Position numbers and translations under genes: made by a program. The notes under the pieces are model-generated. The model made no database searches. It worked only from the letters and a program-made list of their open reading frames with translations, and had not been told where the DNA came from. A DNA stretch of 64,000 bases from Flammula alnicola (Eukaryota > Basidiomycota > Agaricomycetes > Agaricales > Strophariaceae): contig JADNRV010000004.1 in NCBI GenBank assembly GCA_015499995.1, positions 124,001 to 188,000 of the forward strand, given 5' to 3'. Every line of letters begins with the position of its first letter. Positions within the stretch are counted from its first letter, which is position 1. Positions 2,202 to 59,923 of this stretch are shown here, one piece after another.

Positions 2202-2227
2202 CTCGGAAAGCTTGGTTGTTTATTTTA

Positions 2228-22529: not shown

Positions 22530-23644
22530 TTACCGGCGTCGGAATTTGACGACGTTTGTATTCGTCACAGGGCCCTTGAAGATCTGGTCTCCATAATAGG
22601 CTTGAATCGGAGTGGTACGACTCTCTGCGGCAGGGTCGTCGTCGATGTTTCTGTTGTTCACCAATTTCTCGAACATTTGTGAACCGTGGTAGAGTTGTAC
22701 ACGAACTGGACTAACAGACGATTTGGCAGGGGGTCTGTACAAGGACATGTCCCGGAGCGAGTCCAAAACCTCGCGTATTTCGCGTAAAAGGCATTTATTG
22801 TCGTTCCTACAAGCAGCCAGGAAGTGTACCTGTGATACCACCGCGCTGACCTAAACATATTACATGAGTGAGGGTCAGTTCTCTATATTACATGGAATAA
22901 TATGCGATTACTGACGTCAAATAGTTTGAATATATGTTCTAGCTTTGCCCTAATTTGCGTTATGTTTCGCTTCACCAAGCTTTTTTTCATGAACTTCATG
23001 AACTTGGACTGGGAGGTACATGTTTTGCACAAGCTTTCGACCTCTTGCAGCGCGCTGAAAATCCAGAGACATCGGTAAGGCGGTTTGAATTGTTGTAGTG
23101 AAGAGTAACTAACTTGACCAGAGCTTCAACCATTGGCGTGAATTCCTTAGGCATTGATTCGCCGGATTGTTGGAACCTTGCGCATTCAGAAGATATACAG
23201 ACCAGTAATTGGCAGATCTCTCGGATGACGTTTTCAAGATCTTCGTGGTTCTGATTCACATTCTACCCCAATCGTGAATATTTATCTAATGTTGGAAGTG
23301 ATAGTTGTCAGCCAAGAGGGGCGCACCTGCACCATATCGACCAGCGAAGACGCGAGGTCAATACTGTCCTTTAAAAATGGGACGGGGGCCAAGGCACCAA
23401 CGCCTTTCAGCACTGTAAGAATAGTCTGTGTGGTGCTCAAGACCCTGTCCGTACGCGACTCGGAGATACCAGGTCCCTCTATGTTCGGAGTAGGCGGGAC
23501 GGGTATATCAGATGTCGACGGCGCAATGTCCGGTGAGGCGGGTGTATCAGAGGTTGCCGTGTTTGCTGAGGTAGCGGCGGCGCGGTTCGACCTAGGTAAA
23601 ATCCTCTTCCGCTTGAAAGATGCGAAGAAATTGGACTTGGGCAT
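22530..23644 (-). CDS. HELL1: HeLo-like/MLKL-N-terminal-like protein with two C-terminal repeats
   Basis: Four exons joined by GT-AG introns give about 308 residues with no lesion. Residues 1-70 are a basic then Ser/Thr/Pro-rich tail (KSNFFASFKRKR, SDTPASP). Residues of about 72-235 look all-helical: TILTVLKGVGALAPVPFLKD, NHEDLENVIREICQLLVCIS, VKRNITQIRAKLEHIFKLFD, and CLLREIREVLDSL. The APVPFLKD start and helix pattern match fungal four-helix HeLo-like/MLKL_NTD domains, which permeabilise membranes in regulated cell death. The C-terminus has two aligned segments, VQLYHGSQMFEKLVNNRN and IQAYYGDQIFKGPVTNTN, separated by an acidic linker of about 10-13 residues, then a basic FRRR end. Paired repeats after a HeLo-like domain are the architecture of HET-S and HELLF prion-controlled effectors. 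The domain call is from motif pattern; cell-death activity is inferred. Confidence 0.78.
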
Positions 23645-24878
23645 TGTACGTGATCTCTCGGGGTGAGGGGGCCTAGTGATAATTTGGTGGATTGTATCTT
23701 GCGTTGTAAGGCCTAATTATTTTCCTTTATAGCGCAAAGTAGATGCTGGCATGTACATTTGAGGAGAACCTTGTAAGGAAGAATTTGTCGACTCCTAAGG
23801 GATTATCGAGGTTGCTGTGTTGCTGTGTTCCAAGAACTTCCGGGGTCTTGACATCCTTCGTCGTTAGCCAAAGTTGGTACTGTGTAGATGTAGATTTGAA
23901 CGTGCAATCGAGTATCCATGAGTGACCCAGGTAGAACAAGGCCGCTAGAGATAAAACAATGAAGGTTCATTTACCGAGTCAAGGCTGTCAAGCACAGAGG
24001 GTATTTACGTATTTACGTGTCATCGGCGTGCCACCATGCGTTCCTATTTTTACTTTACTTTGTTCACGAGTCTTCAAATGGGCACGAGAACCTGGCTTGT
24101 GGGCCCCGGCTTTGGGTGTCCGTGATTGCAATCTTCCCATGAATTCGCACCGAAGAACAATTAGGTACGGAAACAGGCGGAGCCCACAAAGATGTGTCAA
24201 GACTTATTGATCTCTGGAATGTGTGGGTGAAAAACCTATCGTAAATCTACCGCACTGTTGTTGTTAAGGAAGGGCTCATGCACGTTCAACAACTTCAACT
24301 TGGCCGCGTGACATTCAATATTTGAATAATAAATTCAGCGAACATATTTCTCGAAATTCTGTTCACCAAGTGTCATAAAGAATTAAATTTACGATCGAAA
24401 CTCGTGAACAGTACTTTAAAAAGCACTTGTAGAAAGTGGAAGTTCGATTTCAAGTACCTGAGGGCAAAAGCTGATCGTCATGAATCAGGCTGCCAATTTC
24501 TGATCTCATGGAGATCTAGTCGTAGCCCGTCACAGCTCGTTGATCGAGCGTGAGCCCTACCTTATGTATAGAGGACACAAGGACGTACGGAAGTGTCACG
24601 GAAATGGGTTGAACAATGAACGGGATATCCGTTGCATTTTCATCCAGGGTTGGATCGCCAGATTCACGACAAAAATGGAGAGATCTCAAGAAGCGATTTC
24701 TATCCTGTCCAAAGTATTGTTTAACAGCTCCAGAATGTTTCCCTAGGTCTTAGTGTATGAAGAATACCTCCGGGAAAGATCTAGCTAGTTTTCAGGTGCA
24801 TAGAACATTAATGGTGCGCAGTAATATCGAAACACAGATGTATCCACGCCAGTAACATTAAGGTGTGAAATATGACGA

Positions 24879-26671: not shown

Positions 26672-27625
26672 GGTGCGCAGAAGAGAAATGCTTCGTCTTG
26701 ACTCAAGAGAGGAACTCAGAAAATATTGAATGGTTCAAACGTTCAAACGTTCAAGCTAAAGTCAAGCGTTGTCATGTTCAACTCCCTGTGAGATCCGATC
26801 GGGCGGACTAAATAACATCCCGAAAGGTTCTGTTCTCGGCCCGGCAACCGGTCACTCTACCTCCGTCCTAGAAATCAAGATTCTTTGAAGATTCTTAAAT
26901 AATTGTCCTGGAATTTCGTGTCAGTAGAAATCCTTTAAATAAAAATTTGAACAAGCAAACTGATGATGCAAAAATGGAAAAATTCTCCCAAGTATATTCC
27001 AAAATTGTCAAATCCGCCAGTGAAACGACATACGACATTTTCCTTGACAAAAAATCATTCCGTGTTCTCAAAGCCTGCCATCCAGGTCGCTCACTTAAAA
27101 GCGGCGCACCAACCTGTAATTTCATTATCAGTATGCTCAGTGTGATTTGGAGGTCAAAACCTTTACAATTTGAGGGTATTCAATAGAGCTAATTCACCTC
27201 ACGGAGTTGCTGAAAATTTCCACATAATGTTCTTCAGCTACATAAACGTAACAATTCGTGGAGAAAGGAGCACTTCCTCATTGGAATTGGACCGATTTTT
27301 ACAAGGCCGGCTGCAGTATTGCAGGTTGACATGCCTGTTATCATCCCCTTTTGTTGTCTATAAGGCAAGAATTTTGTAGGTTACTATGTACAGTCTGGTA
27401 TCGTTGCTTTAATTGAATAATCACATATGAGGTCCCTGGGGGTTCGATAAACTTAAGGTGAAACAGTCATATTGGGATTCGGATTTCTCACCACTTGTCA
27501 ATCTAACTTGACTTACACGCCGCTCGACAGCTCAAAACCAACTCACCTCAACTGCAACTTCCATCCTTGACTCGGTTTACCGAATTTACACTTGACCACA
27601 TCTCATTCAGCTCATTTTGGATTAC
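26672..27625. promoter_or_regulatory. Divergent intergenic region between B1 and A2
   Basis: About 950 bp separating the start codons of B1 (minus) and A2 (plus). Short open frames only, and I see no gene. The head-to-head A/B arrangement recurs at three other places, so the region probably holds both promoters. No specific site is recognisable. Confidence 0.4.
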
Positions 27626-29543
27626 ATGAAGAAAATCTTGAGCAGTATGTTTCCAACTTTCCCTATTATCAACGAAGTCAAAGGTCGCTCACTGTCTCCG
27701 CGGCCAATGCCAAGGTGTATTGCCCACTGGGAAAAGAAGGTCAGAAATCTGTTCATCTCCATAGCATGGCATGCTTATAGCGTATTTTTTTGCCACCAGA
27801 ACTTCGGGAGAGAAAACTGTCAGCAAGAATAACAACAACTTCAAGTCGAATAATCGGGATACTACAATGGCAGGCGATAATGTGTTCAAGGATATACGAG
27901 CTAGGGGGCATGTCACTATAAACTCCACCACTTTCGTTATGTCTGGGACTGGCAGGCAGCCTCAGAGTTCCCTTTGTAAGCCTCCTGTCTTCAAGTAAAA
28001 CAACATTGTTCCGATAATTTTGCAAGTCGCCATTCTGGAACAGGGCCCCTCCAAAGTGAGGGCGGAGGAAGGCTCGAGCACCACGGTAGGTGCGGATATA
28101 CATCTGCTTAAAATTCTACGCTTTACTCTTTCCCTTCACTCAGTCCGAAACCACAGCAGTCTCGTCGATACTTTCAGAAGGTAAGTTCTATGTAGTCGAA
28201 ATAACATTTATCTTCAATGGCATTTACCCCCATAGCAATGATAGCGACAGAGACTACAACTTCCCCGCTAATCGACGACAATGTAAATCAAGCAAGATCC
28301 GACCTCCCTCGATCTAGCTATTATAAGAATACTACTTCCGACGCAAGGAGTGGACGTTCTATCACTTCTATTCGTTCACTAGGTATGGATATGACCTATT
28401 CAATCGAACGACCTCAACGATTTATGAACCCCACCATAGAACCCTCAAGGTTCAAACATATCTCAATCACGATCATGGTACGGGATTTCTATCTTGTCCT
28501 TTACTGGCAACTGCTGAAGGCCGTACATTTAAGAATCTGAAAGACCACGTCTCTAAAGACATCCAACCACACGTCATCAGCCATATGAGGAGCAGGCTAT
28601 TCGATTCAGATACAGTTATTCCGCTCTGGACGCCTTCTTCATCCCATGAAAACAACTCTGTCTACGTCGGAGATGTCGGAATATTCAACGAGCATGGCGG
28701 TTTTGAAACCTTTTTCAACGTCCTCCGGACAGAGAAGGAAAATCGCCAGAACGGATACAGGCTACCTAGCAATTTTAAACCGTATGATAAAAACATATCC
28801 GAGCTTCAACTGCTTAGGGAATATCAACGAGCTGATTTCAAGGATGAGGTGACAAAAATCTCAGGATTTGAGATGGACTGGAAAAGGTCAGACGTCTTGT
28901 ATAGGACTAATAAATTGTGGCTTACATTCTATCGACGTCAAGTCCCAACGAGTCCCAATATTTGCTCAAAATCGATCTTCCTCCCAGCAAACACAAACGT
29001 ATCGACTGCTCAGCACTTTATATGATGCATGGATTTTTCAAGATTTATCTACGCACTTCTGATAAACTCGGCATAGAGCGGTACATGAGAGAACACCATC
29101 AGAGCTGGCGCGAGCATGTGGATGACATCACGGACACTCGGCTGCAAGACTGCCCCTTAGCACTCATTGTCGCTTCCTACCAGACAAAGTCTTGGTCTTT
29201 GGCAGCGGCCAATTGGCCTCCTTTCTCAAAAAAATCACCCGGTGCAACGTTGCGAAAAGCGGACAGAGACGGGGATGATTCAGATATGTATTTCTGGTCA
29301 AGCAGTGACCCCCGGTTAGTCCGGACAAAAAGTGCTCAACCTATTGTTGAGCTCCAGGATAGAGACGAAGAGACCGCAGCATGTCACTGCGTTGGCGTTC
29401 AGGCCACATTTGTTCAAGAGCAGAAGTCGTGGCCACTGTTAGGAGGATCTCTTAGAAGTAACAGAACGGTCAGACCAAACACCTCGGCTCTCACTTTACC
29501 TGCATATTTTCCCTTCCGTATAGACGAGGTCCAAGACAACTAA
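27626..29543 (+). CDS. Family A protein, copy A2 (5' exons possibly damaged)
   Basis: Family A layout: a short first exon (MKKILS, from 27626), a second small exon near 27715-27740, then exon 3 with the Asn-rich motif NNNNFKSNNRDTTMAGDN. Downstream come LKDHVSKDIQPHVISHMRS, VYVGDVGIFNEHGGFETFFN, an intron, and SALYMMHGFFKIYL, LIVASYQTKSWSLAAA, MYFWSSSDPR and ACHCVGVQATF, ending TAA at 29543. The second small exon is about two bases shorter than in A4 and A5, which would break the frame unless other splice sites are used, so this copy may be impaired. Function unknown. Confidence 0.62.
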
Positions 29544-31770: not shown

Positions 31771-34257
31771 TCACTCCGGTATCCAGAGAACCTTGCACAT
31801 ATTCTGAAGAACTGGGGCGTTAGGTTTCTCATCTGGTCGCTTGCCCACCCAAGGAAAAATGCGGGCGAAGGTTGAAGTCAAACCCCGCCGCTGACGACTT
31901 GGAGCTGCGATCTGAAGGAAATCAATAAAGAAAGGTTTTCTTAAAATGTAGGCGCGACGTACCAGCCCATTCTCACTAGGCTTTTTGGGAGTAAATGTTG
32001 CGATTCCTAGAGTGTGAAGGTAAGCATGATGGGACGCCAGATCGACCCAGTGACCTACCATCTGTATTCACAACGTCGAAGTTGTCTATCACTCTGCGGA
32101 CCAGTTGGATAACTTCGGGGTGGGTCCAAAGACGCTGCGGCTGTCGTTGGCTCCCATGATGAAGATATAGAAAATCTGACTTACCCCGTTCAACTGTGAG
32201 CACCACACGGAGTCTGCAACTATGCCGACCACAGCTGATGGATCCTATTTCACGTAAACATAATACCAAAAGAAAGAAAGGTTGATGTTGTACCGTCAGG
32301 AGCAAGATATGCAAGAGAATGATTGAAGGATGAAAGTAACCCTGACATACAAATAAAAAAGCGACGAGAGACAGCTAAACATTTCAACATTGGCTTTACC
32401 ACTGGGTCATCGCGGGAAGGCGGCTTTATGGTGCCCATTATACGAGCCAAGGCTTCTTGAAGCCGTGCTTGCAGACCCAGCGATGGAGCTGGGAGTACAG
32501 GGCAATTGCGAACACATTTGGGAGGAATGTACGCAACATGTCGCGACCACTGGGAAGGGTTCAGTGCTACGGAGAGCACACTTAGAAGGACGGCACCGAG
32601 GACACCATCAGAAAAGCGTCCGGCATCATACCATAGTGGCCTGCTTTGGCTGTCACCTTCCCAAGCTGAATTAGAATTTTCTTCATTGTATTTGAATCGC
32701 GTCTGTTTTTCGGCGTTCATCCCAACAATTTTCTGCGCCGGAAACGTCGCCATAGCCCAAGAATCGACCCGATCGACCCCCGTAATAACCCACAGCGTGC
32801 CGTTTGAGATGGGTGTCTCGGCAATTTCGCCGCTGTCACCGTTGAGCCACTGATACCAGGACGCGGCGTGTTCCTTCACGTAGGGGTATATCCGGGAAGG
32901 ATCGATGAGCTCTTCACGAGTAGCTCCAGTGGGAAGAATCAAGATTGCTCCTTCACGAGCCGAGGTGACAAACTCAACTTTTCTGTAAATGACTTTCAGC
33001 ACTGCTAGGTAAAATGAAGTGATATATGCATTACAGCGGGGAGTCCGATATTCGGGATACTTCGATCCCTTCAGTGGCCATGACCGTGCCAGAGGTAAAA
33101 TGATTTGAGACAGTGCGAACCTCCTCTGGGGATAAGGGTGGCTGAATTGGTGAAAAGTTCGGGGGCACCTCCTTCCTCTGGATGGGATGATCGGAGGGGT
33201 AGAGCACGTTAAAGCAGTAGTAAAAGCCACCGTTCTCGTTCATATACCCAACGTCGCCGATGCAGGCCCCTTGGTTCAAATGAAACTTCGGCCGTGCTAT
33301 GTCACCTTCGATATGGTGAATGCCAACCCCATTCCCCAAAGACAGAATGGATCGAGCGTATACCCCAGGTGTTCGAAACTGGGTCTTGACCGTGCAATAG
33401 ACAGGAAAGCTGGTATCTATGCCCTCACGGTGGGGACCTTGAATTGAGCCTATAAATTTGTATTCAGTATTCTGAAGATATGCAGCATGAATAGTGATGT
33501 GCCGGCTCCGGCCTGAGGCCAGAAGCCGAGCCAAGCCGGGCCCAAAGAAGCCGGGCCAAGCCGGGCCAAAGGTATTGGCCTGGAGGCGGCTTTGGCCCGG
33601 CCTGAAGTTTTGAAAAGCCCGAGCCGTCGGCCCAGGCCGGGGCTTTCTGCAGAATTTTTGTTGAATTTAAACGGAGAAAAATTGACCTTTGAGTAACCAA
33701 AACTCACTTTTTGTACTGTACTTTCACGAAAGTTTAGTCTAATAATAGTTTTAAAGTCAGTTTGATGATGACTTGATCGTGTGGTAATGTGGCCATGCAT
33801 TGACGGACAAGTCCGGCTGAGTTTGAAATACCATCAATGTTCATTTTGGTTGCGAAAACAGGTTGCAGGTGGTATTGCACATTGACAACATGCCTTAGGC
33901 ACCCGTATATTAGTTAAATATGTAGTTTAGAGTTGCATCTATGTGTAGATATCAAAATATATTTATTATATTATGTTTTAGCTAATTTGTCAGCAAAGCC
34001 CCGGCTTGAGCCAAAGCCGGGCCGGGCCAAGCCTGATTTCCGGCTTTTGGCCCGGCTCGTGATTTGACCAAGCCTGAGCCACCCAAAGCCGGGCCAAAGC
34101 CGCGGCTTTCAGGCCAAGCCGGAGCCGGCACATCACTAAGCATGAAAACAGACGCACTATGACGGGAAAAGCTTCCGTCCGACTCGGACAAGGAATTTGA
34201 CCTGCGGTCCTCATCGCGACCAATACCCAGGCGAAAATTCCTCAGAAAGGAGGTCAT
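31771..34257 (-). CDS. Family B protein, copy B2, with a transposon in intron 1
   Basis: Exon 1 (34257-34158) encodes MTSFLRNFRLGIGRDED and ends GSFSRHS. Intron 1 (34157-33450) is 708 nt because it contains a 647-bp transposable element; without element and duplication it would be 53 nt, like other B copies. Exon 2 onward reads GSIQGPHREGIDTSFPVY, ACIGDVGYMNENGGFYYCFN, KVEFVTSAREGAILILPTGA, IYPYVKEHAASWYQWLNGD, WVITGVDRVDSWAMATFP, LSVALNPSQWSRHVAYIPP, a short hydrophobic exon IILLHILLLT, AVVGIVADSVWCSQL and VIQLVRRVIDNFDVVNTD. It ends at 31771 after APVLQNMCKVLWIPE. The frame appears intact. No catalytic domain is recognised; this resembles a large uncharacterised agaricomycete family with GPYREG and IGDVG blocks. 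Confidence 0.75.
33492..34138. mobile_element. Non-autonomous hAT-type element, 647 bp, with 8-bp target-site duplication
   Basis: Both ends begin with the inverted sequence TAGTGATGTGCCGGCTCCGG, and the termini are GC-rich with repeated AAGCCGGGCC-like units. The element is flanked by a perfect direct repeat AGCATGAA (33484-33491 and 34139-34146). An 8-bp duplication plus this kind of end is typical of hAT transposons. The AT-rich centre has no transposase. It lies inside intron 1 of B2. Confidence 0.9.
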
Positions 34258-35939: not shown

Positions 35940-37478
35940 CGCATCTTCCGGAATGGTCGCTACAAGCTGCAACAATAACAACGTCAACTCGGGTAATGAG
36001 AATTCTATAGTTATAGGGGGCAATACGGTGGATTGTATGGTCGTAAACGCTGGCGGGAACGTGTTTGTGAGCATAACTCAGGGGGCAGGAAGTAAATTCC
36101 TTGTTTCTACATTTAACTCCAGTTTATTGATGTCCGGACCTCAGGATCTATGAATCTCGACAGCTTGAAAGAGGAATTGCCAGAAAGGTCTGACCATCAG
36201 CAGCCTTATGATACCGGAGTGGACAAATTCGATGCTGAGATCTGAGAGTTCATTTGATTGCGAATCAGTAGGTACGAATTTATTACAAGCTTCTTGGTGG
36301 TCGTGAATGTGATTTGAAAATGTGGGTTTTACAGCGCCAAACTCAAGATCCAGTCTGAAAAGGATAACACCTGAGGTATGAATTCTCTTTTCCCCGGCTG
36401 TTGGGCTGGTTTTCGGCAGCTGCTAATGATCTCCCTTCAAGAATCTCAAAAATCATGTTCCTGAATCTATCCACGATTGTGTCATGAGCTACATGTGCGC
36501 ATCAGGCCTTTTCCGTTCAACAATAGCCATTCCTCTTTGGAGGCCTTCACCATCTCTGTACAACTCTCGAAAGAACCAAACTCGACATTGGGGGAAGAAT
36601 GTTTACATCGGAGATGTTGGAGTCTTCAACGGTGATGGTGGTTTCGACACCTATTTCAACGTCTTCGAGACGAAAGAAGAAAACGAAAGCCGTGGACGCA
36701 CACCTCCAGCAAATTTTGTACGCTATCCCAAGAAGCTCTCTGAGATGGACATAGTGTCGGAACCGCAAAATGATGGGCTGATGATTATTGGATTCGTGAA
36801 AGACAAGTCAGGCGAAAGGTCAGGCCTGCCTATTTTTAAAAAAAGAATTCAAGCTTACATTTTGCTCAAAGCGGAGAGCATTCTACTTCATTTGCTATCA
36901 AGTTCCCCCCGCCTCCACACAAGCAAAAAGATGCATCAGCTCTTCATATGCTACATGGCTTCCTCTCCGTCAAAATGAATTCCTCCGAAGAAGGCAGGCT
37001 AAAAAACTATATCAGACGACAACAGACCGGCTGGTATGAATCATTTAAAGACGTCCTCGAAGGCCGCTCTTTAGTGGTCATAACCACCTCCTATCGAGCA
37101 AAGACTTGGGCATCGGCAGCAGCCAAGCTTTCGAAGAAAGAAGGGAAGATGAGGTTAATACACCGGAATGTCGAAAAGAAAGATGTATGCTCCTGGGTCT
37201 CTGATGATGCCGATATCTCTACGAAGAATGGTCCATCCCGCGACCACATTCAAAAGATTGAATCATACTTCCGAGCTTTGGGTGACGAATCAGGCCGTGA
37301 CGAGATTGAAGAATGCCATGCTGTTGCCGTTGAGGCGTTCTATCTTCACGAAAAGAGCTCAGGGATAGGAGGATCTACTAGAAGCAGAAGGACCACACAA
37401 ACAGCAGCATCGTCACGGTCGAAATTTTCTATAAAATCTTTTAGTACTATAAAGCTATTTAGTAGGAGAGCCTCGTGA
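35940..37478 (+). CDS. Family A protein, copy A3 (5' exons not located)
   Basis: From exon 3 at 35940 (after a CTCGCAG acceptor) the gene encodes ASSGMVATSCNNNNVNSGNE, the family's Asn-rich motif. Later come NHVPESIHDCVMSYM, VYIGDVGVFNGDGGFDTYFN, KKLSEMDIV, then after an intron SALHMLHGFLSVKM, VVITTSYRAKTWASAAAK, IQKIESYFRALG and ECHAVAVEAFYLH, ending TGA at 37478. The usual tiny first exons are not clearly recognised. An extra exon-3-like stretch (RPSSAKKITTLNRKNDEM, about 35810) lies just upstream and may be a tandem duplicate. Its 3' end is about 170 bp before the decayed HELL2. Confidence 0.62.
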
Positions 37479-37649: not shown

Positions 37650-38577
37650 GGGGGCCTGTGTCTCCGAGTCGCTTACGGACAGGGCCTTGAGCACTATCCT
37701 TACAGTGTTGAAAGGTGTTGGTGCCTTCGCCCCCGTCCCATTTTTAAACGATAGTATTGATCTGGCGTCTTCGCTGGTCGATATGGTGCAGGTGCGCCCT
37801 TCTTGGCTAACTACTATCACTTCCAATATTAGATAAATATTCATGTTTTTGGGTAGAATGTGAATCAGAACCACGAAGATCTTGAAAACGTCATTCGGGG
37901 AATCTGCCAATTACTGGTTTGTATATCTTCCGAATGCGCAAAGTTCCAACAATCCTGAATCAATGCCTAAGGAATTCACGCCAATGGTTGAAGCTCTCTG
38001 ATCAAGTTAGTTACTCTTCACTACAACAATTCAAACCGCCTTACCGATGTCTCTGGGTTTTCAGCGCGCTGCAAGAGGTCGAAAGCTCCCAGTCCAAGTT
38101 CATGAAGTTCATGAAAAAAGGCTTGGTGAAGCGAAACATAACGCAAATTAGGGTAGAACTAGAACATATATTCAAACTATTTGACGTCAGTAATCACATA
38201 TTATTCCGTTTATTATTGAGAACTGACCCTCACTCATGTAATATGTTTAGGTCAGCGCGGTGGTATCACAGATACACTTCCTGGCTGCTTGTAGGAACGA
38301 CAATGAACGGCTTTTACGCGAGATACGCGAGGTTTTGGACTCGTTCTGGGACATATCCTTGTACAGACCCCCTGCCAAACCGTCTGTTAGTCCACTTCGT
38401 GTACAACTCTACCATGGTTCACAAATGTTCGAGAAATTGGTGAAGAATAGAAATATCGACGACGATGACGATCTTGCCGCAGAGAATCGTACCACTCCGA
38501 TTCACGCCTATTATGGAGACCAGATCTTCAAGGGCCCTGTGGTGAATACAAACGTCGTCAAATTCCGACGCCGGTAA
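37650..38577 (+). pseudogene. HELL2, 5'-truncated and frameshifted
   Basis: The N-terminal start and most of the Ser/Pro tail are missing. The bundle begins STILTVLKGVGAFAPVPFL, continues with NHEDLENVIRGICQLLVCIS, and breaks at a stop after AKFQQS, where two bases are missing relative to HELL1. A further in-frame loss removes LCKTCT-equivalent residues. The last exon is intact, with LLREIREVLDSF, both terminal repeats (VQLYHGSQMFEKLVKNRN and IHAYYGDQIFKGPVVNTN) and the FRRR end at 38577. Confidence 0.8.
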
Positions 38578-42776: not shown

Positions 42777-44709
42777 CTATGGTCTTATCGTAGTTCGAGA
42801 AGAATTTCTAGACGATCCTCGCCTCGAAGCCTCCATTTCATCTTCAAGAAAATCTGCCTGCACGGCGACACAGTGACACCATTCAATTTCTTCACGATCT
42901 TTTTTATTGCTGATGGTCTGTAAATATGATTGCATCTCCTTAATATCGAGGTCAGATGGACCACTGTTCGTCAGGATATCGTCGTCATCGCTCTCCCAGA
43001 ACGACATATCCGGGATTCCAGACACTGTTCGTAATGTTGCCTTTCCTTTCCTGCTGGATAAACGAGGCTTTGTAGCTGTTGCCAATGCCCAAGACTGGGC
43101 CCGGAAGGACGCAACAATGATCACGAAAGAGCGCGCGCGCGTTTCATCCAACGCGTTCTCCTCCAAGTGAGGGCGCCAAGTCTCCTGATATTTCTCCACA
43201 TATTCGCTTATGTGGGCTCTTTCGAATTGGCCTATCTTGAGCCGGAGAAAGCCTTGTGACAGATGCATCGCTGAGCAGTAGACACGATCGGGTTTACTCC
43301 TCAAACTATCAGGAATGCGAATCCTGGGACGGTCGTCACTGTTCAGGAGAATGTCAGACAAAAATCGCTTTGATGGGCTGTACGCACGACGCGATTCCTG
43401 ACCTTTCTTTCCTTTTATCTTTGTTAAATCCACGGATATACAAATTCTTTTTTGCGCGGGAGAAAATCAGGTTCGTCTTCAAGGTCTCGGAGAGTTTTTT
43501 GAAGTAAGGCACAAATCCTTTCGGGGGGTTGAGACCACGGCTAATGTTTTCATCTTCCGTCTCGAAGATATTGAATAGGGTGTCGAAGCCTCCATCTTCG
43601 TTGAAGAGCCCGACATCTCCAATATAGACATTCTTCCCCCATCTTTCAATGTGATCATGTTGAGTTGGCGAGGGGTTCCAAAGCGGAATCGTATCGGCTT
43701 CTGCGGAGAAAGGGCTTGTTTTCATATAGTTCTTTATGTGACGCTGCGTGGTAGTAGGAATGTAATATTTCAGATTCTTGTAAACAGACAGTCAGTGATT
43801 GTCATATTCCGTAAGACCGAAACACATACCGGAGCGGTTATAGCTTTAGTGCGAAGTGAACTTGATTGTGAGCCTGTAACATACATATTTCAAAACACAA
43901 AAATCGGAGGGGGTTGAAATGAATCATATCCATACCCAGTGATCTAGACGAATATCTGCTTCGCGAGGAATTTCCTACTCCAAGTGAGTCAGAGCTTTCG
44001 GTCAGGGTTACACTAACGTTGGATCGAGTTCGTAGATGACCAGAAGGCTTCTGTAGGATACTTGTGAGTTTCCCTGCGGAGGGACCTGGTAATACATTCC
44101 GATTTGAAGTGAGCGATATTGAAGCCAAAAGATACATAAATCGGAAAGTACCATTTAAAAGTTGTGGAGCTTCTAGGCTTTGTGACTGATTAAGAAAAAG
44201 AAAAGATTTAAGATTTCGAGTTTCAAGTTGGTACAGATCTGTGCTTACTCTCGAGCTTTCTAGATCTGTGGCTAGCGATGCCTCTTCCAACGGTTGGCTG
44301 ACACCGGTCAGTTCAGCGACCACTGCTCGATCATCAGTTTAATCAGTTTCGTGCGAAGATGGAAAACTTACATCTATGAGTATCAGGAACAGAAATGAAG
44401 TTGGTGTGGCTGATATATTGAACGGTACCCCTCGAAGCATTGTGTATAGTCGTACTGCCTTCGATAACTGAATGGTTGTTACCGCTGTTAATATTCTCGT
44501 TATTGCTTGTTATGATTTGCTTTCCGGAAGGTCTGGCGACACGAGGATAAGCAGGATTCTCCCAGGTTGAGAGGACTCATAGGATGTCTAACCTGGCTCC
44601 AACTGTGGACTGTATGCCTGGACGTCGATCGGGCTGAGAGTGAGCGACCTTCGAATTATTTCATGAAGCAGAGTTTTAGACACATACTTTTCCAGGCCTT
44701 TCCGAACAT
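42777..44709 (-). CDS. Family A protein, copy A4
   Basis: Exon 1 begins at 44709 (MFGKAWK; an ATG two codons upstream at 44715 is also possible). A 25-nt exon 2 follows (SIQSTVGA), then exon 3 with RPSGKQIITSNNENINSG and HSVIEG. The body has VYIGDVGLFNEDGGFDTLFN, VPYFKKLSETLK, SAMHLSQGFLRLKIG, SFVIIVASFRAQSWALATAT, MSFWESDDDDILTNSGPSD and WCHCVAVQADF, and ends TAG at 42779-42777. The frame is plausible throughout. It is divergent from B3, with a 390-bp inverted-repeat element between them. Function unknown. Confidence 0.72.
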
Positions 44710-45285: not shown

Positions 45286-45500
45286 ATTATAATAGTAACG
45301 TCGTTTTGCACCAGTCCTGTTGGAACGTACTTGCCTTATAGGCAACAAAAGATGACATAATTACGTAATGTGTGACCATTCGATCAGTGGACCCAATGAA
45401 CCTGGACTCGGAACGTCCACGGGAACAAAGTCGAACATAGCAACCGTGTCGTGTTCATAATCATACACCACGTTCCTGAGGCATTTCTCTTCCTCATTCC

Positions 45501-47255
45501 ATGGCATTCCTTCTCCGTCGCTCACATTTGGGGACGGGTCACAATGAGGATGAAAGAACAAGTTCTTTTTCCGGCTCGGAAAGGAGAATCTCTCGGCATA
45601 GTGCGTCTCTGTCATACTAATTCTCTCCAGGATACTGAACAGACATCGCTAGGCTCAATTGAAGGACCTTACCGTGACGGCACCAAGGACACCAACTTCC
45701 CTATCTATTGCACAATCGAAAACCCATCTGCGGAGCCCCGTATATATGCTCGCTCTTTGTTGCCGTTGGGAAATGGGTTTGGATTGAATGTTGCTCTAGG
45801 GAGCGAGTCGCGTCCCAAGCTACATATGAGCCAAGGCGCCGTCATCGGCGATGTTGGTATCATGGATTCAAACGGTAGCTTTGAGTTCTGGTTCAATTTG
45901 TTTCTCCCACCAGATCACCCCAATCAACCAACAAAGACCATGCCACCAAATTTTTCCCCGCTACATCCCCCCCTATCCAAAGAAGAGCTGCTCACTGTTC
46001 CTGATCATTTTCCTCCTGGAACAGTCATTGCCAGCGATGGAGTCAAGATATCTCGCATATCATCTTCCCCATTGTAATGCTCATTTCTTTCTTCTTCCTT
46101 TTGTCACGCTGATTAAATATTATTCAAAGGAAAGTTGAATTTGAAACATCCGCCCGGGAAGGCGCGGCTCTCGTTCTCCCTACAGGAGCTTCTCGTGAAG
46201 ACATCATCGATCCTTCCAGAATTTACCCCTACGTGAAGGAGCATGCTATTGATTGGTACCAAGGCTACAATGGTAACGGTGAGATTATTGCTGGTGAACC
46301 TGTTTCGAACGGTACCGTGTGGGTTATTACGGGCGTTGATCGGAGCACTTCATGGGCAATGGCGACCTTTCCGGAGGATAGCTCAAATTCAGGGAAGTAT
46401 ACGCGATTCAAATACAATGGGGAAAACTCGGAGTCGGTCTGGGAAGACGACCAAAGATGCAGCCCAGATTACCAATTGCAAAACTTCTCTGACGGCACCC
46501 AGGGCGCTATCTTTCTTCGTGTTTTGGCTGTGGCTTTAAGTCCTTTAGAATGGTCGGGACACGTTACACATATTCCTTCTGACTGCGTTCCGCACTATAC
46601 TGTCCTTTCGACTCCCCGGGTGGGTCTACGTGCATGGGTTCAACGGGCTATGGCTCGCATCCTCTCCAGTACTAGCCATGCTTCTATCGATACCCCCCAG
46701 GTTCGAGACAGCTTATACCTATATGTCAGTTTTTCACCCTCTTCTTTAGGTTTTCTTTCATCCGTCGATCATTCTCTTGCATATCTTGCTCCTGACGGTA
46801 TGACCATCGCGATTTCTCATATAATATCCTGCTAATGCCCACTAGGATCCATTAGCAGTGGTGGCGGTTGTTGCGGATTCTGTGTGGTGCTCGCAGCTGA
46901 GTAAAGTATGTCCCATCGTTTCTGCGCTTCATACACAAGCCAACGCCGGACATAGCGACACTTGAATCACTCAGAAGTTATTAAACTGATGCGGCGGGTT
47001 ATTGACAATTATGATGTTGTAAATACGGACGGTGCGTCTCTCGTTAAGTTTCCTAATATTTACGCTCATGTTCGCCTTGTAGGAGTGGTCACTTTCTCCC
47101 CTAAGCAATACAAAGCCGATACGTCCCATCGCTGGCAGAGAGGATTGACTGCCTCTATTGGCCGCATTATACCTTGGGTCGCTAAGTACCAGGAAGAAGA
47201 GCTCAACGCTCCAATACTTCAGAATATGTTCAAGGTCCTCTCGGTGCCCGAATGA
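45501..47255 (+). CDS. Family B protein, copy B3, apparently intact
   Basis: Exon 1 begins at 45501 (MAFLLRRSHLGTGHNED, ending RRISRHS). After a short intron: GSIEGPYRDGTKDTNFPIY, YARSLLPLGNGFGL, AVIGDVGIMDSNGSFEFWFN and DHFPPGTVIASDGVKISR. Next exon: KVEFETSAREGAALVLPTGA, IYPYVKEHAIDWYQGYNG, WVITGVDRSTSWAMATFP, LRVLAVALSPLEWSGHV. Then a short hydrophobic exon (FFHPSIILLHILLLT), AVVAVVADSVWCSQL, LNHSEVIKLMRRVIDNYD and a last exon with VVTFSPKQ and APILQNMFKVLSVPE, ending TGA at 47255. This is the best reference copy for family B. No enzyme signature is visible. HELL3 lies 1 kb downstream in the same direction. Confidence 0.8.
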
Positions 47256-48255: not shown

Positions 48256-49356
48256 ATGCCCAAGTCTTTCTTGGCACCTTTCAAGCGCAAGAGGATTTCA
48301 CCCAGGTCGAACCCTGCCGCCACCGCTACCTCAGCAAACACGGCAACCTCTGATACACCCGCCTCACCGGACGTTGCCCGTCGACATCTGATACGCCCGT
48401 CTCGCCTGCTCCGAACATGGAACCCAGTGTCTCCGAGTCGCGTACGGACTGGACCTTGAGCACCACACAGACTATCCTTTCGTGCTGAAAGGCGTTGGTG
48501 CCTTGGCCCCCGTCCCATTTTTAAAGGACAGCATTGACCTCGCGTCTTCGCTGGTCGATATGGTGCAGGTGCGTCCTTCTTAGCCGACTACTATCATTTC
48601 CAACGGCATTAGATAAATATTGATGATTTTGGTAGAATATGACTCAGAATCATGAAGATCTTGAAAACGTCATCCGGGAGATCTGTCAATTGCTGGTCTG
48701 TATATCTTCTGAATGCGCAAGATTCCAACAATCCGGTGAATCAATGCCTAAGGAATTCGCGCCAACGGCTGAAGCTCTGGTCAGGTTAATTAGTTACTCT
48801 TCATTACAACAATTCAAACCGCCTGACCGCTGTCTCTGGATTTTTAGTGCGCTGAAAGCTTGTGCAAAACATGTACCTCCCAGTCCAAGTTCAAGAAGTT
48901 CACGAAAAAAGGCTTGATGAAGCGAAACACAACGCAAATTAGGGCAAAGCTAGAACTATTCAAACTATTTGACGCTAGTAATCGCATATTATTACTATAG
49001 AGAACTGACCCATCGTTCGTGTAATATGTTTAGGTTCGGCGCAGTCGTATCACAGATACACTTCTTGGCTGCTTGTTGGAACGACAATGAACGGCTTTTA
49101 CGCGAGATACGCGAGGTTTTGGACTCGCTCCGGGACATGTCCTTGTACAGACCCCCTGCCAAACCGCCTGTTAGTCCAGTTCGCGTACAACTCTATCATG
49201 GTTCACAAATATTCGAGAAATTGATGAAGAACAGAAACATCGACGACGATCTTGCCGCAGAGGATCATACCACTCCGATTCAAGTTTATTAGTATTATGG
49301 AGACCAGATCTTCACCCGTGGTGAATACAAACGTCGTCAAATTCCGACGTCGGTAA
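48256..49356 (+). pseudogene. HELL3, multiply frameshifted
   Basis: The start is preserved (MPKSFLAPFKRKR and SDTPASPD). A 1-nt loss after PDVA shifts the frame, and another lies just before the bundle. NHEDLENVIREICQLLVCIS is readable. A deletion of about 10-11 nt destroys the start of exon 3. The final exon reads SQIHFLAACWNDNERLLREI and the first repeat VQLYHGSQIFEKLMKNRN, but an in-frame stop precedes the second repeat, which itself has lost about 10 nt. The copy cannot make the family protein. Confidence 0.82.
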
Positions 49357-54102: not shown

Positions 54103-56075
54103 TCAATAACCTGCTTCCTTAAATACACTTGGAGTAAAACGCGTCGGCATACTCAGTCTCGAAGCCCTGGATTTCACCGTACTTCGACTACTACCTTTAG
54201 ACGTGAAAGATCCTCCTCGCAACCATCTCTTTTTCTGAAGAGCATATGCACCAACGGCCATGCAGTGACATTCTCTAGTGCCCTTGCGGTCATGTTCATC
54301 ACACCGTGGTTCTGTCCCCGCATCCATGTCCCTGAAATACGAATCTATATCGTCCATGTGTTTGTTAGATGGGCCAAATCTGCTCCGAATGCGACAATCA
54401 TCGCTTTCCCAGAAATACCATCTACGGTCGCCCTGGATCAACTTCTTTAGTGTCACTATGGCTTGTTTACTGGATAGAAAAGACTTCGTGCCCCCAGCCA
54501 GAGCCCAAGTTTTTGCTCGGTAAGAGGCGACGATGACTACAAAAGAGCGGTCGTGAAATTGCCCTGCCGTTATTTTATCCATGTGACGCTGCCAGGCCTC
54601 CCGTTGTTCTCTCAAGTATTCGGTTAACCGGGGCATCTCCCACTGATTTATGCTGATTTTTACATAGCCATCTGCAAGATGAATGGCCGAGCACTCAGTG
54701 GAGTCGACTTTATCAGGAAACCCAATCGTGACCAAGTCTGTGGAGCGGTCGTCGCTGTTTGGCAGAATCAGAGAGAATTCGTTTAACTGCAGATACGCAA
54801 TGTGATATCTGACCTTTGTTTTGCGTGAGGAGGATCCTTCACGAACCCAGAAGTCATCGTCGTCGTCGATGATGCCAACATTAAGTCCTGGATGTCTATG
54901 CCGATCTCGGAGAGATTCTTGTGGTAAGGTATAAAGTCATCGGGCGGATCACGTTTACGTTCACGATTTTCCGCCGCCGAATGGAAGATATTAAAGAGAG
55001 TGTCGAAGCCACCGTCATGATTAAAGATTCCAACATCTCCGATGTAGACGTGGGTCCGCCACGTTCGGGCGTGGCCTTTACACGGTGAAGGATTCCAAAG
55101 TGGAATGACGTGACTTGAATGGAAAAGCTCTGTGCTCATATAGCTCTTGATATGACGCTCTGTGTGTTTAGGTACATGATTTTTCAGGTCCTTCAAATTG
55201 AAAGCGGCCAATCAGCGTTTGTTGCGAATGAATTAAGACAAAACCCATACCGCCGATTCTATCGGTTTTGGGAGAGGATATTCTGAGCTTGGGACTATAG
55301 TATGCACGTTTCAGTCAAAAGGTTCGAAAAGGGATGCAAAAGTCATAAGCCATACACAGCGATTGATTACTACGCGTTTGACGGTTTGAGGGTGCCTCCG
55401 AGTTTGCAATGGAAGTCGCTCCAACCGGTATTTCGCTCACAGCTTTCTGAATAGCACTAACATGTGCTTTGATTGCCTCTGCAGTGACCGGCTCCGTGTA
55501 TTGACTTGAATTATCTAGATTCGAAGTGAGTCTCATGGAAGGTAACTGACATTTAAGGCAGCATACCATTCAAGAGAAATGGTTGAGCTGTTTGAACTTC
55601 TGGCTGGTTGAATCAAAAGAATAAGACATCGGATTTCAAGCTGGTACGAAACTAGCACTTACGCTGTTACTTTCCGGTGGTTCTTCCGACAGAGCCGCCC
55701 CTGTCTGACTTTCAGTAACAATGTCCTTTCCTTCAGAAAAGATGCATAGATGCATACAGGTATCCAAATTAGAATAGGGATCATGCGTCGCGGGGATGTG
55801 TAAATTGTCGATATAATTATTGATCGTCACATTCAAATTATCGCCTTCGATTATAGCGTTGCGATTATTCGACTTATGATTGCCATTATTGATTTGTACT
55901 GGTCGCTTTCCCGAAGATCTACTAGCACATTGTAAGAATATTATCCTGAAGGGTGGTGCAGGAGTGCGTGACCTACCTTTCCCTCCCAGGGCGCCAAATG
56001 CCTGAATGTTGAAAAGAGGGATCTTTGAATTGCACGATAACAGCCTGGGCAGAAAAACATACCTTTCCAGGGCAT
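54103..56075 (-). CDS. Family A protein, copy A5
   Basis: Exon 1 is 13 nt (MPWK plus one base, from 56075); exon 2 is 25 nt (GIWRPGRE); exon 3 holds NNGNHKSNNRNAIIEGDN followed by LNVTINNYIDN. Later exons: PVTAEAIKAHVSAIQKAVSE, LKNHVPKHTERHIKSYMS, HVYIGDVGIFNHDGGFDTLF, then a final exon with SAIHLADGYVKISINQWEM, FVVIVASYRAKTWALAGGTK, WYFWESDDCRIRSRFGPSN and ECHCMAVGAYALQ, ending TGA at 54105-54103. It is closest to A1 and reads without lesions. It is divergent from the B4 pseudogene. The Asn-rich motif and repeated exon layout make it the best reference copy for family A. Confidence 0.75.
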
Positions 56076-56496: not shown

Positions 56497-57596
56497 ATGG
56501 TTTCCTTTCCGCGTCTCTTACACTTAGGCAGTAGTAACAATGAAGGTCAAATGACAGACTCCTTGTCTGAGTCGGAAGGGAGCATATCCCGGCATACTAG
56601 TGCGTGTGCATTATACTAAACGCATCCAGAAGTGCTGAACACGGTTTGAAGGCTCGATTCAGGGTCCTTACCGTGAAGGCATGAAGGACACTGGCTTTCC
56701 TGACTATCGCACAGTTCAAGTTCCATAGAAGCGGCGGAATATACGCCCGCTCCCTACTACTTTTAGGAAATGGGGTTGGTTTACACAGTGTCTTAAGGAA
56801 TCTATCTCGGCTCAAAAAGTATTTTACCAGTGGGGCCTTTCTCACTGACGTTGGTTCCACTGACGAAAACGGCAGCTTTAGCTTTTGCTTCAATGTCTTT
56901 TCCCCTCCGAATCATTCCATTCAGCCAAAAGAGCTACCGCAAAATTTTCTCCAGTTCATCCAACTTTTTTCAAGGAGGCTGTCTTCACCCCCAATTTCTT
57001 TGCTCCTGGGACAATCATGGCCAGTTCATCTTTCATCCGTCCATCGTTCATTTACATATTTTGCTCCTGACGGTATGATGCCTGTATATTCTGCTTCAAT
57101 TTCATCCTGATGTCCAATAGGATCCATCTGCAGTGATAGCCGTCGTTCAAGATTCTGTGTGGACGTCACAATTGAGTGGGGTATGTTGCTTTCGTTTCAA
57201 CCTTTACTGCATGAGCCAACGCCAGATATAGCAGCATTTAACACACCGTGAGGTCGTGGAGCTAGTACATAGGATCATCAACAACTTTGATATCGTGAAT
57301 ACGGACGGTAGGCCTACCTTTAGTCGATGCTCATGATTTTAGCTCGCTTTCGCCTTGTAGGAGTGGTCATGTTTGCTCCTAAGCAGCAAGAAAGCATAGA
57401 CCATGCGGCACGTAAAGCCTTCATATTACGAGATCCATCTGTATTGATTGCCTATAGGTTGTCACTCCGAGTCGTTGGAATGTAACCTCGTACATACATA
57501 CGCCACGTTATGTCCTGGATCTGGGACTCACAAGACGAAAGCATTAGAGGCCGGGCGCTTTAGAATATGCGTACGGTACTATCTATATCACAATGA
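56497..57596 (+). pseudogene. Family B, copy B4, stop codons and central deletion
   Basis: Exon 1 from 56497 (MVSFPRLLHLGSSNNEGQ, GSISRH). Exon 2 starts GSIQGPYREGMKDTGFP, then meets TAG after RTVQVP; the remaining blocks are in shifted frames (IYARSLLLLGNGVGLH, TDVGSTDENGSFSFCFNVFS). The sequence GGGACAATCATGGCCAGT is followed directly by the hydrophobic late exon (TTTCATCCGTCC), so several hundred bases of the central module are missing. The C-terminal exons (AVIAVVQDSVWTSQLSG, VVELVHRIINNFDIVNTD) survive to a TGA at 57594-57596. Confidence 0.8.
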
Positions 57597-58673
57597 CCGG
57601 TATATTCAAAGTCTTAATGTTGCTGGTATGGACACATTTATACCAGAGTGTTATCACATTAATATTTTGTGCACCAGAATGCACGTGTCGAGAAGCACAG
57701 GTTAGGTTATGCTCGAAGGGGCTGTTCATACCTTGCGAACCCGCTGTGGGACATGGAGGGAAATATTATAATTCCCCAAACAATACTGTGAATAAGATGG
57801 AAGTCACCCAGTAGGGATCTAACTACCTAACCACCTACCTTCGTTTATTATTCCCTGGGTAAAATGTCGACCAAACAGCGAAAACAGGGTCATTTAGCGT
57901 GGTGCGGTTGGTATCGCGTTCTCGGGTTCTCTCAGAATCTCATGTCCTTACACAGGGTAATCGGGCCTCCAAATCTTGAGTATCGCGGAATCTCGAGAGA
58001 TCATTGATCATTGATCAGCCCTTGAATGAAAATGCCTATTCGAGCAGCGGATATCCCGTTATCACATTTCCGTCATTTCCGTGACACTTTCTTGAGTCAT
58101 TGTGCTTTCTACAACAACAATGCGGCGTAAGTTGTGTTCGGCTCTTCGCCCACATATTCTGCCAGCGGAGATACACATGACCTTGACAATTTTTTTGGGG
58201 CTGCGCCCACAAGCAAAGTGTCATTTGAAAATGATATGGCAACTAAAGTAAAAATAGGATGTTTGGCTGCAGCGGCGATGAGGCGTGCGTAAATATCCAT
58301 ACTAGAGATGATCAATGAACAGCGGTGTCGATTTTCGCTCATTGTTGTACTGTCTTTTTGTCCTTGTTCTTAGGAAGTCTAGCTGAGTTGTCCATGGAAA
58401 CTTAATTGTAAGTTCGAATCCGTGTCTGTACATCGCCTAGTACTAATGCACATCAAGACCCCCAGAACCTTTGGAAACAAAGCAACGTTGACCTAGATAT
58501 AGTGGACGCTCAGGAGTCAACGGAATCTACCTTCCGGGGCTCTCTTCAAAGTTCCCGTGCAGGGTTTTTTCAAAGTTTACTTTGTGCTATAAAGGCAAAC
58601 GCAACTGACCTGTGCAATCCAAGATAATTTCTATTAAAACCTTCCCCTTTCTCACCCCAGAAGATCACTTACG
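57597..58673. other. Intergenic, upstream of HELL4
   Basis: No supported gene. From about 58230 the sequence resembles the upstream part of duplication copies 1 and 3 (CTTGTTCTTAGGAAGTCTA), so the HELL promoter region was co-duplicated. Confidence 0.5.
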
Positions 58674-59923
58674 ATGTCCAAATTCCTCTCGTTGTTCAAG
58701 CGAAAGAAGAACTCGGCTAGACGGAACTCTCCCGCCGCAGCGGCTGCCTCACCAAATATGCCAATTTCTGATACTCCCGCCTCACCAAGCCTAGCAAATT
58801 CTGATACGCCCGCCTCACCTGACATGGCGGCGACGATATCTGATACACCTTCCTTGGCACCTGGCGTGGCGGCATCGACTCCTGATACACCTGCCTCACA
58901 TATCGTGGCGGCGCCGACATCAGGGACAACCACCTCGGCGGCGACGTCTGATGATATACCCGCCCCGCCTGCTCAGACCACGGAGGGACCTAGCTCCGAC
59001 TCACGTACGGACAAGGCGTTAAAGACCACACAAAGTATCCTTAAAATACTTCAAGGCGTTAGCGCCTTGGCTCCAGTCCCTTTCCTAAAAGATTGTATTG
59101 GTCTCGCGTCCACTCTCATTGGTATGGTGCAGGTGCGATCTTCTTGGTTGGCTACTATCGATTCCACTAGCTGATTATTCACGATTTTAATAGAACGTGA
59201 TTCAGAACCAAGGCGATCTTGAAGGTATTGTCCAAGAGACCAGCCAATTGTTGATCTGTATATCTACGCAATGCGAAAAATTCGAAGAATCTGGTCTGGC
59301 AATACCAGAGGAATTTACCCCAATGATTGAAGCTCTGGATAAGTTCGTTACTTGTTTTACGACGACTTAAACTGCTTTACTGACGTCTCTGAACTTTTAG
59401 CGCCCTAAAAGAGATTCAAGGCTTGTGCGAAAAATGTACTTCGCAGTCCAGGTTCACGCAGTTCATGAATCAAGACTTGGTGAAACAGAATATAGCGCAA
59501 ATTAGAGGGAATCTGCAATATATATTCAGGGTGTTTGACGTCAGTAATCATATACTTAATATTCCACGTTCATAGAGCTGATCTTCATTCATTCAATATG
59601 TTTAGGTGAGCGCAGTGGTATCAGAGATACGCTTCCGGACATCTTGGAGGAGCGACAATGAACGCCTGTTACGCGAGATTTTGGACTCGCTCCGGGACAA
59701 ACCCTTGTACAGGCCCGCCACCAATTCCCATGTTACTCCAGTTCAAGCTCGTGTACAAGTCTACCACGGTTCGCAATCGTTCGAGAAAAGGGTGGACAAC
59801 GAAAACATCGACGATGATAGCGACGGAGAGAATCGTACGGTACCGATTCAAGCCTATTCTGGAAATCAAGTATTCAAGGGTCCTGTTTCGAATAAAAACG
59901 TCGTCAAATCGCGTCGACGGTAA
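58674..59923 (+). CDS. HELL4: HeLo-like/MLKL-N-terminal-like protein with two C-terminal repeats
   Basis: Four exons, no lesion. Exon 1 (to about 59131) has a basic start (FLSLFKRKKNSARRNS), a Ser/Thr/Pro/Ala-rich tail with several SDTPASP-like repeats, then SILKILQGVSALAPVPFLKD. Exons 2-4 give GDLEGIVQETSQLLICIS, VKQNIAQIRGNLQYIFRVFD and NERLLREILDSLRD, a helical bundle like HELL1. The C-terminus carries VQVYHGSQSFEKRVDNEN and IQAYSGNQVFKGPVSNKN, separated by an acidic linker, and ends SRRR at 59923. Although the tail differs strongly from HELL1, the spacing and key residues of the two repeats (Y.G.Q.F, V.N.N) are kept, which indicates selection on them. By analogy with HET-S/HELLF it would be a membrane-targeting cell-death effector (inference). 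Confidence 0.8.

Follow-up and report, generated by a model that had tools for sequence, protein, structure and literature searches.

Among the closest described systems are those of Podospora, HET-S/NWD2, HELLF/FNT1 and HELLP/PNT1, in which a membrane-targeting helical domain is followed by a C-terminal amyloid motif and the gene for a NOD-like receptor (NLR) with the same motif adjoins that of the effector (PMC7889193, PMC9815663). In HET-S and HELLF the motif is present as a pair of pseudo-repeats, each about 21 residues long and marked by a conserved glycine. Amyloid-controlled cell death is established in ascomycetes, while its basis in mushrooms is a handful of computed examples; amyloid signalling with BaMLKL or HeLo effectors has already been proposed for Agaricomycetes, in cases that also have motifs on the NLR side (PMC9815663), and the link to MLKL has been reviewed (PMC12881547). 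Here we describe two intact genes, D and A, in a 64,000-nucleotide stretch (the window) on contig C334 of the Flammula alnicola assembly G000 (74.4 Mb). This wood-growing mushroom belongs to the family Strophariaceae. The products of both genes combine a putative MLKL-like helical bundle with two C-terminal repeats of 22 residues.

These pairs resemble the HET-S and HELLF pseudo-repeats in length and in their conserved glycine. The Podospora systems differ in their bundle family, their consensus and the adjoining NLR gene; no NACHT match was found in the Flammula window among the candidates scored. HeLo proteins with a double HET-s motif from Sphaerobolus and Gymnopus are likewise Agaricomycete effectors with a paired C-terminal motif, but they carry a HeLo domain and a HET-s-type motif where the Flammula proteins have an MLKL-like bundle and a different consensus (PMC9815663). 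Also close are the BaMLKL effectors of Moniliophthora roreri and Fibularhizoctonia, in which, as predicted for the Flammula proteins, an Agaricomycete MLKL-like bundle has an additional helix at its start; a short motif of about 18-25 residues follows at the C-terminus. The BaMLKL motifs are common to many NLRs of their own genome, whereas the Flammula repeat is paired and occurs in bundle-less proteins and in no NLR found; this separation follows the published descriptions, and the motifs may prove identical (PMC9815663). The D/A family of this mushroom is real and conserved; in all likelihood it is related to the HET-S/HELLF kind, has a motif of its own and is accompanied by unusual partners. 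A search by title and abstract, with most subscription journals and all of bioRxiv outside its scope, returned no work on the Flammula family or on bundle-less repeat proteins of mushrooms.

Genes D and A and their family

Both gene models agree with deposited Flammula proteins, D letter for letter with P0001 and A with P0002 (Table 1). The limits that a preliminary description had given to the two genes proved exact, as did the layout it ascribed to both; the two aligned segments it quoted are the repeats of D, which are separated by an acidic linker and followed by a basic end. In the predicted structure of D, residues 1-109 lack helix and strand and have a predicted local distance difference test (pLDDT) score below 50. 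Helices follow at residues 111-132, 136-154, 159-186, 192-216, 220-225 and 227-248. The helical region had been recognized, but not its start, which had been placed at APVPFLKD; the helices begin earlier, near residue 110.

A search of 5.8 billion proteins with D residues 108-354 yielded 696 candidates, of which just two, D and A, matched at E 10. A three-sequence profile at E 1 recovered at least five proteins (A, E, P0004, P0006 and P0005) among the 7997 candidates scored. E is the 301-residue Flammula protein P0003, encoded on contigs C45/C46, and P0005 is a protein of 278 residues from Pholiota conissans, likewise of the Strophariaceae. E is 29% identical to A, 31% to D and 54% to P0005, and the introns lie at corresponding positions. 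Between E and P0005, 106 of 170 residues are identical in the bundle (E residues 33-202), 7 of 21 in the linker (203-223) and 0 of the last 30, with 59% identity in repeat 1 and 41% in repeat 2. The basic start FLSLFKRKKN of D was considered as a defining part of the family and rejected, being absent from E and P0005. P0005 has both bundle and repeats, so that the repeats do recur in a homologue, as the preliminary description had asked; judged by these alignments, the family is present in two genera, Flammula and Pholiota.

Paired repeats conserved at alternate residues

Fifteen repeat copies, taken from D, A, E, P0005 and the bundle-less Flammula proteins F, G and H, give a gap-free alignment of 22 positions. 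All 15 copies have Q4, G8 and N20, position 6 is always aromatic (F/Y), and Q/H10, F12, V16 and N18 are nearly fixed, which gives the consensus pattern QxFxGxQxFxGxVxNxN. Over positions 3-20, the mean entropy is 0.57 bits in even columns and 2.44 bits in odd columns (permutation p 5e-5, the copies being related). In a control on the four effectors, 114 bundle windows stayed at or below a parity difference of 0.65 (mean 0.20) and tail windows reached up to 1.0. Alternation of this kind is the mark of an extended strand that has one face conserved. In the model of E, each repeat is predicted to have strands at 10-12 and 16-20, forming an arch that turns at 13-15, and in that of D a strand is predicted at positions 16-22, both at low confidence.

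D, A, E and P0005 all carry such 22-residue pairs in the C-terminal part, the arrangement of the HET-S/HELLF pseudo-repeats. When a profile built from the first repeats of the four proteins was scored on their second repeats, with 1000 shuffles each, the second repeats beat every shuffle in three of the four (bits versus best shuffle: P0003 24.5/8.5, P0002 14.4/6.0, P0001 11.8/8.4), the Pholiota protein P0005 being the exception (7.3/7.9). With a profile made from Flammula repeats only, a single P0005 repeat passed 5 bits, at 9.3 versus 6.5 for the best of 2000 shuffles, and the other did not; the Pholiota repeats therefore rest mainly on the full-length alignment.

Searched against the PDB to E 10, the repeat profile found no HET-s, HELLF or RHIM chain, and none of its four weak matches is an amyloid motif; against Pfam, it matched no amyloid-motif family. 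The PP and PUASM motifs show a similar alternation of G and Q (NxGxQxGxN and FxGxGxQxxGxGxF), but differ from the Flammula consensus in order and spacing, as compared by pattern and not by profile (PMC9815663). We regard the repeat as a candidate new amyloid-signalling motif with its own consensus, which may yet coincide with one published as a figure (for example NLR20 of Agaricales). The degenerate pattern also matched contigs C33, C301, C612, C778, C812 and C851 (the letters on C778 are those of C33); of these, the three matches read, on C33, C301 and C851, looked like chance and were set aside.

A bundle with likely kinship to MLKL

The Pfam family PF22215 (MLKL_N) matches D at residues 143-246 with an E value of 0.092, below the cut-off. 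The match recurs at the equivalent place in all four intact members, at 12.7 bits in D, 17.0 in A, 14.4 in E and 13.8 in P0005. Because none of them exceeds the 27-bit cut-off, we call the bundle MLKL-like and do not file it as a member of MLKL_N. PF14479 (HeLo) matched none of the four, and PF17111 (HeLo-like) appeared in E only, where it scored 12.7 bits (E 0.083), short of the 27.2-bit cut-off. In alignments of the models, MLKL is the recurring natural domain, at 15-18% identity over 113-126 residues. The models of D and E feature a four-helix core that can be aligned to MLKL, plus an extra N-terminal helix, with low pLDDT and Z scores within helical-bundle noise. Foldseek with the D model returned 0 PDB matches at E <=0.001, and NCBIfam gave no credible match for the family. 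Two further sets of matches were dismissed: 12 weak ones of the effector profile to PDB sequences, the best to an S100A4/annexin/p53 fusion (E 0.00047) and none to MLKL or HET-s, and PADLOC matches in A only (E 0.0023-0.0072), which fall on coiled-coil-like parts.

The evidence for kinship of the bundle with MLKL is moderate, and the bundle fits the basidiomycete MLKL-like type (PMC9815663) better than the HeLo-like one. The preliminary description had read it as HeLo-like, to be checked against MLKL_NTD and HeLo-like profiles. An MLKL/HeLo-like bundle finds support in the sub-threshold PF22215 matches, the order of the helices and the MLKL alignments within noise. Relative to the mammalian MLKL executioner domain, with which their models share an alignable four-helix core, the Flammula proteins have a predicted extra first helix and no kinase domain, and we propose that they are controlled by the C-terminal repeat tail.

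MLKL_N matches also occur elsewhere in the genome, at C21:116482, C723:104579, C80:76426 and C823:126982, three of them over the cut-off; near the one on C823, a P-loop frame lies on the opposite strand. A separate locus (L055, G000:C126:75000-83000) holds bundle genes of the same family with very different, Gly/Asn/Thr-rich tails such as GGISFNNINGSAISLG; these may form a further group of assembly motifs.

Constraint on two haplotypes

G, A and D each have a counterpart on contig C31, with order and orientation preserved and spacing different; we take this contig to be the second haplotype of the window region. The window contains two family members beyond those described earlier, the degraded copies B and C; C31 has a fragment at B, and no counterpart match to C was found on it. 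The two D alleles differ in 20 of 354 codons, with three amino-acid changes, none in the bundle (nonsynonymous divergence, dN, 0.004; synonymous divergence, dS, 0.070). The A alleles differ in 31 of 308 codons, with 15 amino-acid changes, 10 of them in the tail (dN 0.022, dS 0.081; tail alone, dN 0.066, dS 0.167). Between D and A, dN is 0.22 and dS 0.60. D and A are under purifying selection and have been kept as genes, and the tail is the fastest-changing part of A between the haplotypes.

Bundle-less repeat proteins

What is new here is that three Flammula proteins without a bundle (F, G and H) have the repeats too, and that seven protein queries (below) found them in no NLR, although a diverged NLR copy may exist. 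In each of the three the repeats come after a short N-terminal stretch rich in Ser/Thr, which in G and H is basic. Between G and H, dN increases from the repeats (0.11) to the N-terminus (0.28) and the C-terminus (0.61); H was read here without splicing, which gives it another end than the deposited P0008.

We searched the genome to E 10 with seven protein queries: the A tail, D repeat 2, the F repeats, the E tail, an F-like single repeat, the P0005 tail and a consensus repeat. They returned 16, 9, 12, 14, 14, 7 and 18 matches, respectively, on one or both haplotypes, all at the loci of D, A, B, C, E, F, G and H; single repeats of about 60% identity were among those picked up. None of the seven queries revealed an NLR carrying the repeat, the NLR N-termini themselves not having been read. 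Of 235 candidates, 87 were scored and gave 87 NACHT matches in the genome and none in the window, and no NACHT or NB-ARC was seen in the 30 scanned of 90 window open frames of at least 110 residues. The preliminary description, which had proposed an equivalent of the HET-S/HELLF systems, finds partial support: its paired repeats with a consensus of their own are borne out, and the searches just described speak against a plain pair with an NLR partner. As the sole other repeat carriers found in the genome, F, G and H are, we infer, the best present candidates for a template, relay or brake. Protein-kinase-like exons, noted by eye, lie beside F, tail to tail on C24 (L035 41-1084, +) and reversed on C779 (L036 25-1154, -).

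Effector and bundle-less genes appear to be related. Around the start codon, similarity exceeds the best of 1000 shuffles for D-G (29/27), D-H (41/28) and A-H (41/29); it is not significant for A-G (26 of 1000 shuffles equal or better) or, with the C779 copy of F, for D-F and A-F (753 and 329 of 1000 as good). In the 260 bases upstream of the start codon, D-H, A-H, G-H, G-F and H-F exceed all 300 shuffles, and D-G, A-G, A-F, D-F and every pair with E fail to. For the protein starts, D-G exceeds all 2000 shuffles, with 72, 42 and 15 of 2000 as good for D-H, A-G and A-H, respectively. The sequence CTTTGYRCTATAAAG is found exactly upstream of A and D in the window and also in loci holding the C24 copy of F. 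By these comparisons, common ancestry of A and D is well supported with H, partly supported with G, and traceable to F only through G and H. Because H has its 5' region in common with the effectors and the protein start of G is also alike, effectors and bundle-less genes plausibly go back to a single gene, the bundle having been lost or gained.

Other features of the window

A TATA-like element upstream of A and D has three matches in the window, where 0.02 would be expected by chance (one mismatch allowed; Table 1). A gene family without a Pfam match, here called Y (GDVG...FNVF / WAMATFP), is represented at 25487-26715 (-), 45400-46832 (+), 56685-57107 (+) and C334:34309-34674 (-), in each case 1.4-3 kb upstream of, and on the same strand as, A, C, D (degenerate) and the bundle-less G. 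Counted on both haplotypes, the family has 42 matches in the genome; because many of these lie at a distance from any repeat gene, Y was rejected as an effector partner. A joined Y-gene query found no relative in the PDB below E 0.1. Further Y or similar copies, recognized by eye at 17515-18204, 28327-29540 and 36430-37475 (+) and at 32253-33666, 42780-43466 and 54106-55211 (-), are scattered among the effector copies, an arrangement resembling a birth-and-death cluster. An open frame with a heterokaryon-incompatibility (HET) domain (PF06985, E 2.3e-25) lies at 1065-2219 (-), about 20 kb from gene A.

Table 1 Repeat-bearing genes and associated elements; positions refer to the window unless a contig is named
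Feature	Position	Strand	Description
Gene D	58674..59923	+	four exons, 354 aa, intact; also intact on second haplotype
D exons	58674-59132, 59194-59342, 59401-59539, 59606-59923	+	gene model
D N-terminal tail	58674..59000	+	basic start FLSLFKRKKN, then Ser/Thr/Pro/Ala-rich
D helical bundle	59001..59539	+	residues 110-249, spans two introns; MLKL-like
D repeat 1	59747..59812	+	C-terminal, residues 297-318
D repeat 2	59840..59905	+	C-terminal, residues 328-349
TATA-like element CTTTGTGCTATAAAG	58580..58594	+	upstream of D; pattern count in window
Gene A	22530..23644	-	four exons, 308 aa, intact
A exons	23644-23327, 23262-23114, 23054-22916, 22850-22530	-	gene model
A repeat 1	22641..22706	-	C-terminal, residues 251-272
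A repeat 2	22548..22613	-	C-terminal, residues 282-303
TATA-like element CTTTGCGCTATAAAG	23725..23739	-	upstream of A; pattern count in window
Copy B	37657..38577	+	degraded: without 5' end, broken frame; both repeats remain open; part annotated P0006
Copy C	48256..49356	+	degraded: broken frame, stop inside second repeat; part annotated P0004
F	C24/C779		P0009, bundle-less, three repeats
G	C31 and C334:31.6 kb		P0007, bundle-less, two repeats
H	C25		P0008, bundle-less, two repeats

Proposed mechanism and alternatives

On balance, we lean towards reading D and A as basidiomycete MLKL-like death effectors whose repeats serve as a homotypic, amyloid-like signalling motif. The helical bundle would be the membrane-attacking part, kept inactive, and the repeats a homotypic beta-strand motif, probably a beta-arch. 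On meeting a pre-assembled template of the same repeat, they would stack onto it; the bundles would thereby be gathered and activated, leading to the death of the cell or of a fused compartment. F, G and H could seed, relay or soak up the effectors. A bolder version, which we hold only tentatively, is a receptor-less amyloid circuit in which bundle-less repeat proteins arm or restrain the MLKL-like effectors and the NLR is dispensed with; as part of the same tentative proposal, the non-toxic template or decoy would be a gene of its own, with a role comparable to that of the [Het-s] prion form.

The strongest competitor, which has an appreciable though lesser chance of being correct, is a pair of the classic type whose receptor is hidden: a diverged, single repeat at the N-terminus of an NLR would template D and A as NWD2 does HET-S, and the bundle-less proteins would be side products. 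NACHT genes are many, published Agaricomycete NLR and effector genes are not neighbours (PMC9815663), and since the HELLF and HET-s repeats are only 17% identical (PMC7889193), a partner repeat could be missed. Against such a receptor, the seven genome queries matched known repeat loci exclusively, and single repeats of about 60% identity were within their reach.

It is unlikely that the repeats form a soluble, beta-structured module for oligomerization or partner binding that is not amyloid, the effector being clustered by ordinary protein interaction. Conservation at alternate residues would also suit a non-amyloid beta solenoid, or a strand that joins the sheet of a partner, yet in length, pairing, conserved glycine and hydrophobic-polar pattern the repeats agree with what has been described for fungal amyloid pseudo-repeats (PMC7889193). 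Less probable again is a helical bundle that serves structure or signalling and does not kill, given the PF22215 match at the equivalent place in every intact member, the recurrence of MLKL among natural domains, and the extra helix before the core, a published BaMLKL feature (PMC9815663). Decay of the whole family to a state without present function, which the degraded copies B and C and their poor representation on the second haplotype might suggest, is very improbable, since D and A are intact and constrained on both haplotypes and the Pholiota homologue retains bundle and repeats.

The motif of this family is compact and its consensus clear, both haplotypes carry intact effectors, a second genus has a homologue, and separate bundle-less proteins bear the repeat; together these make it possible to test directly whether mushrooms use prion-like death switches. 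If the bundle-less proteins act as trigger or brake, such signalling need not begin at an NLR.
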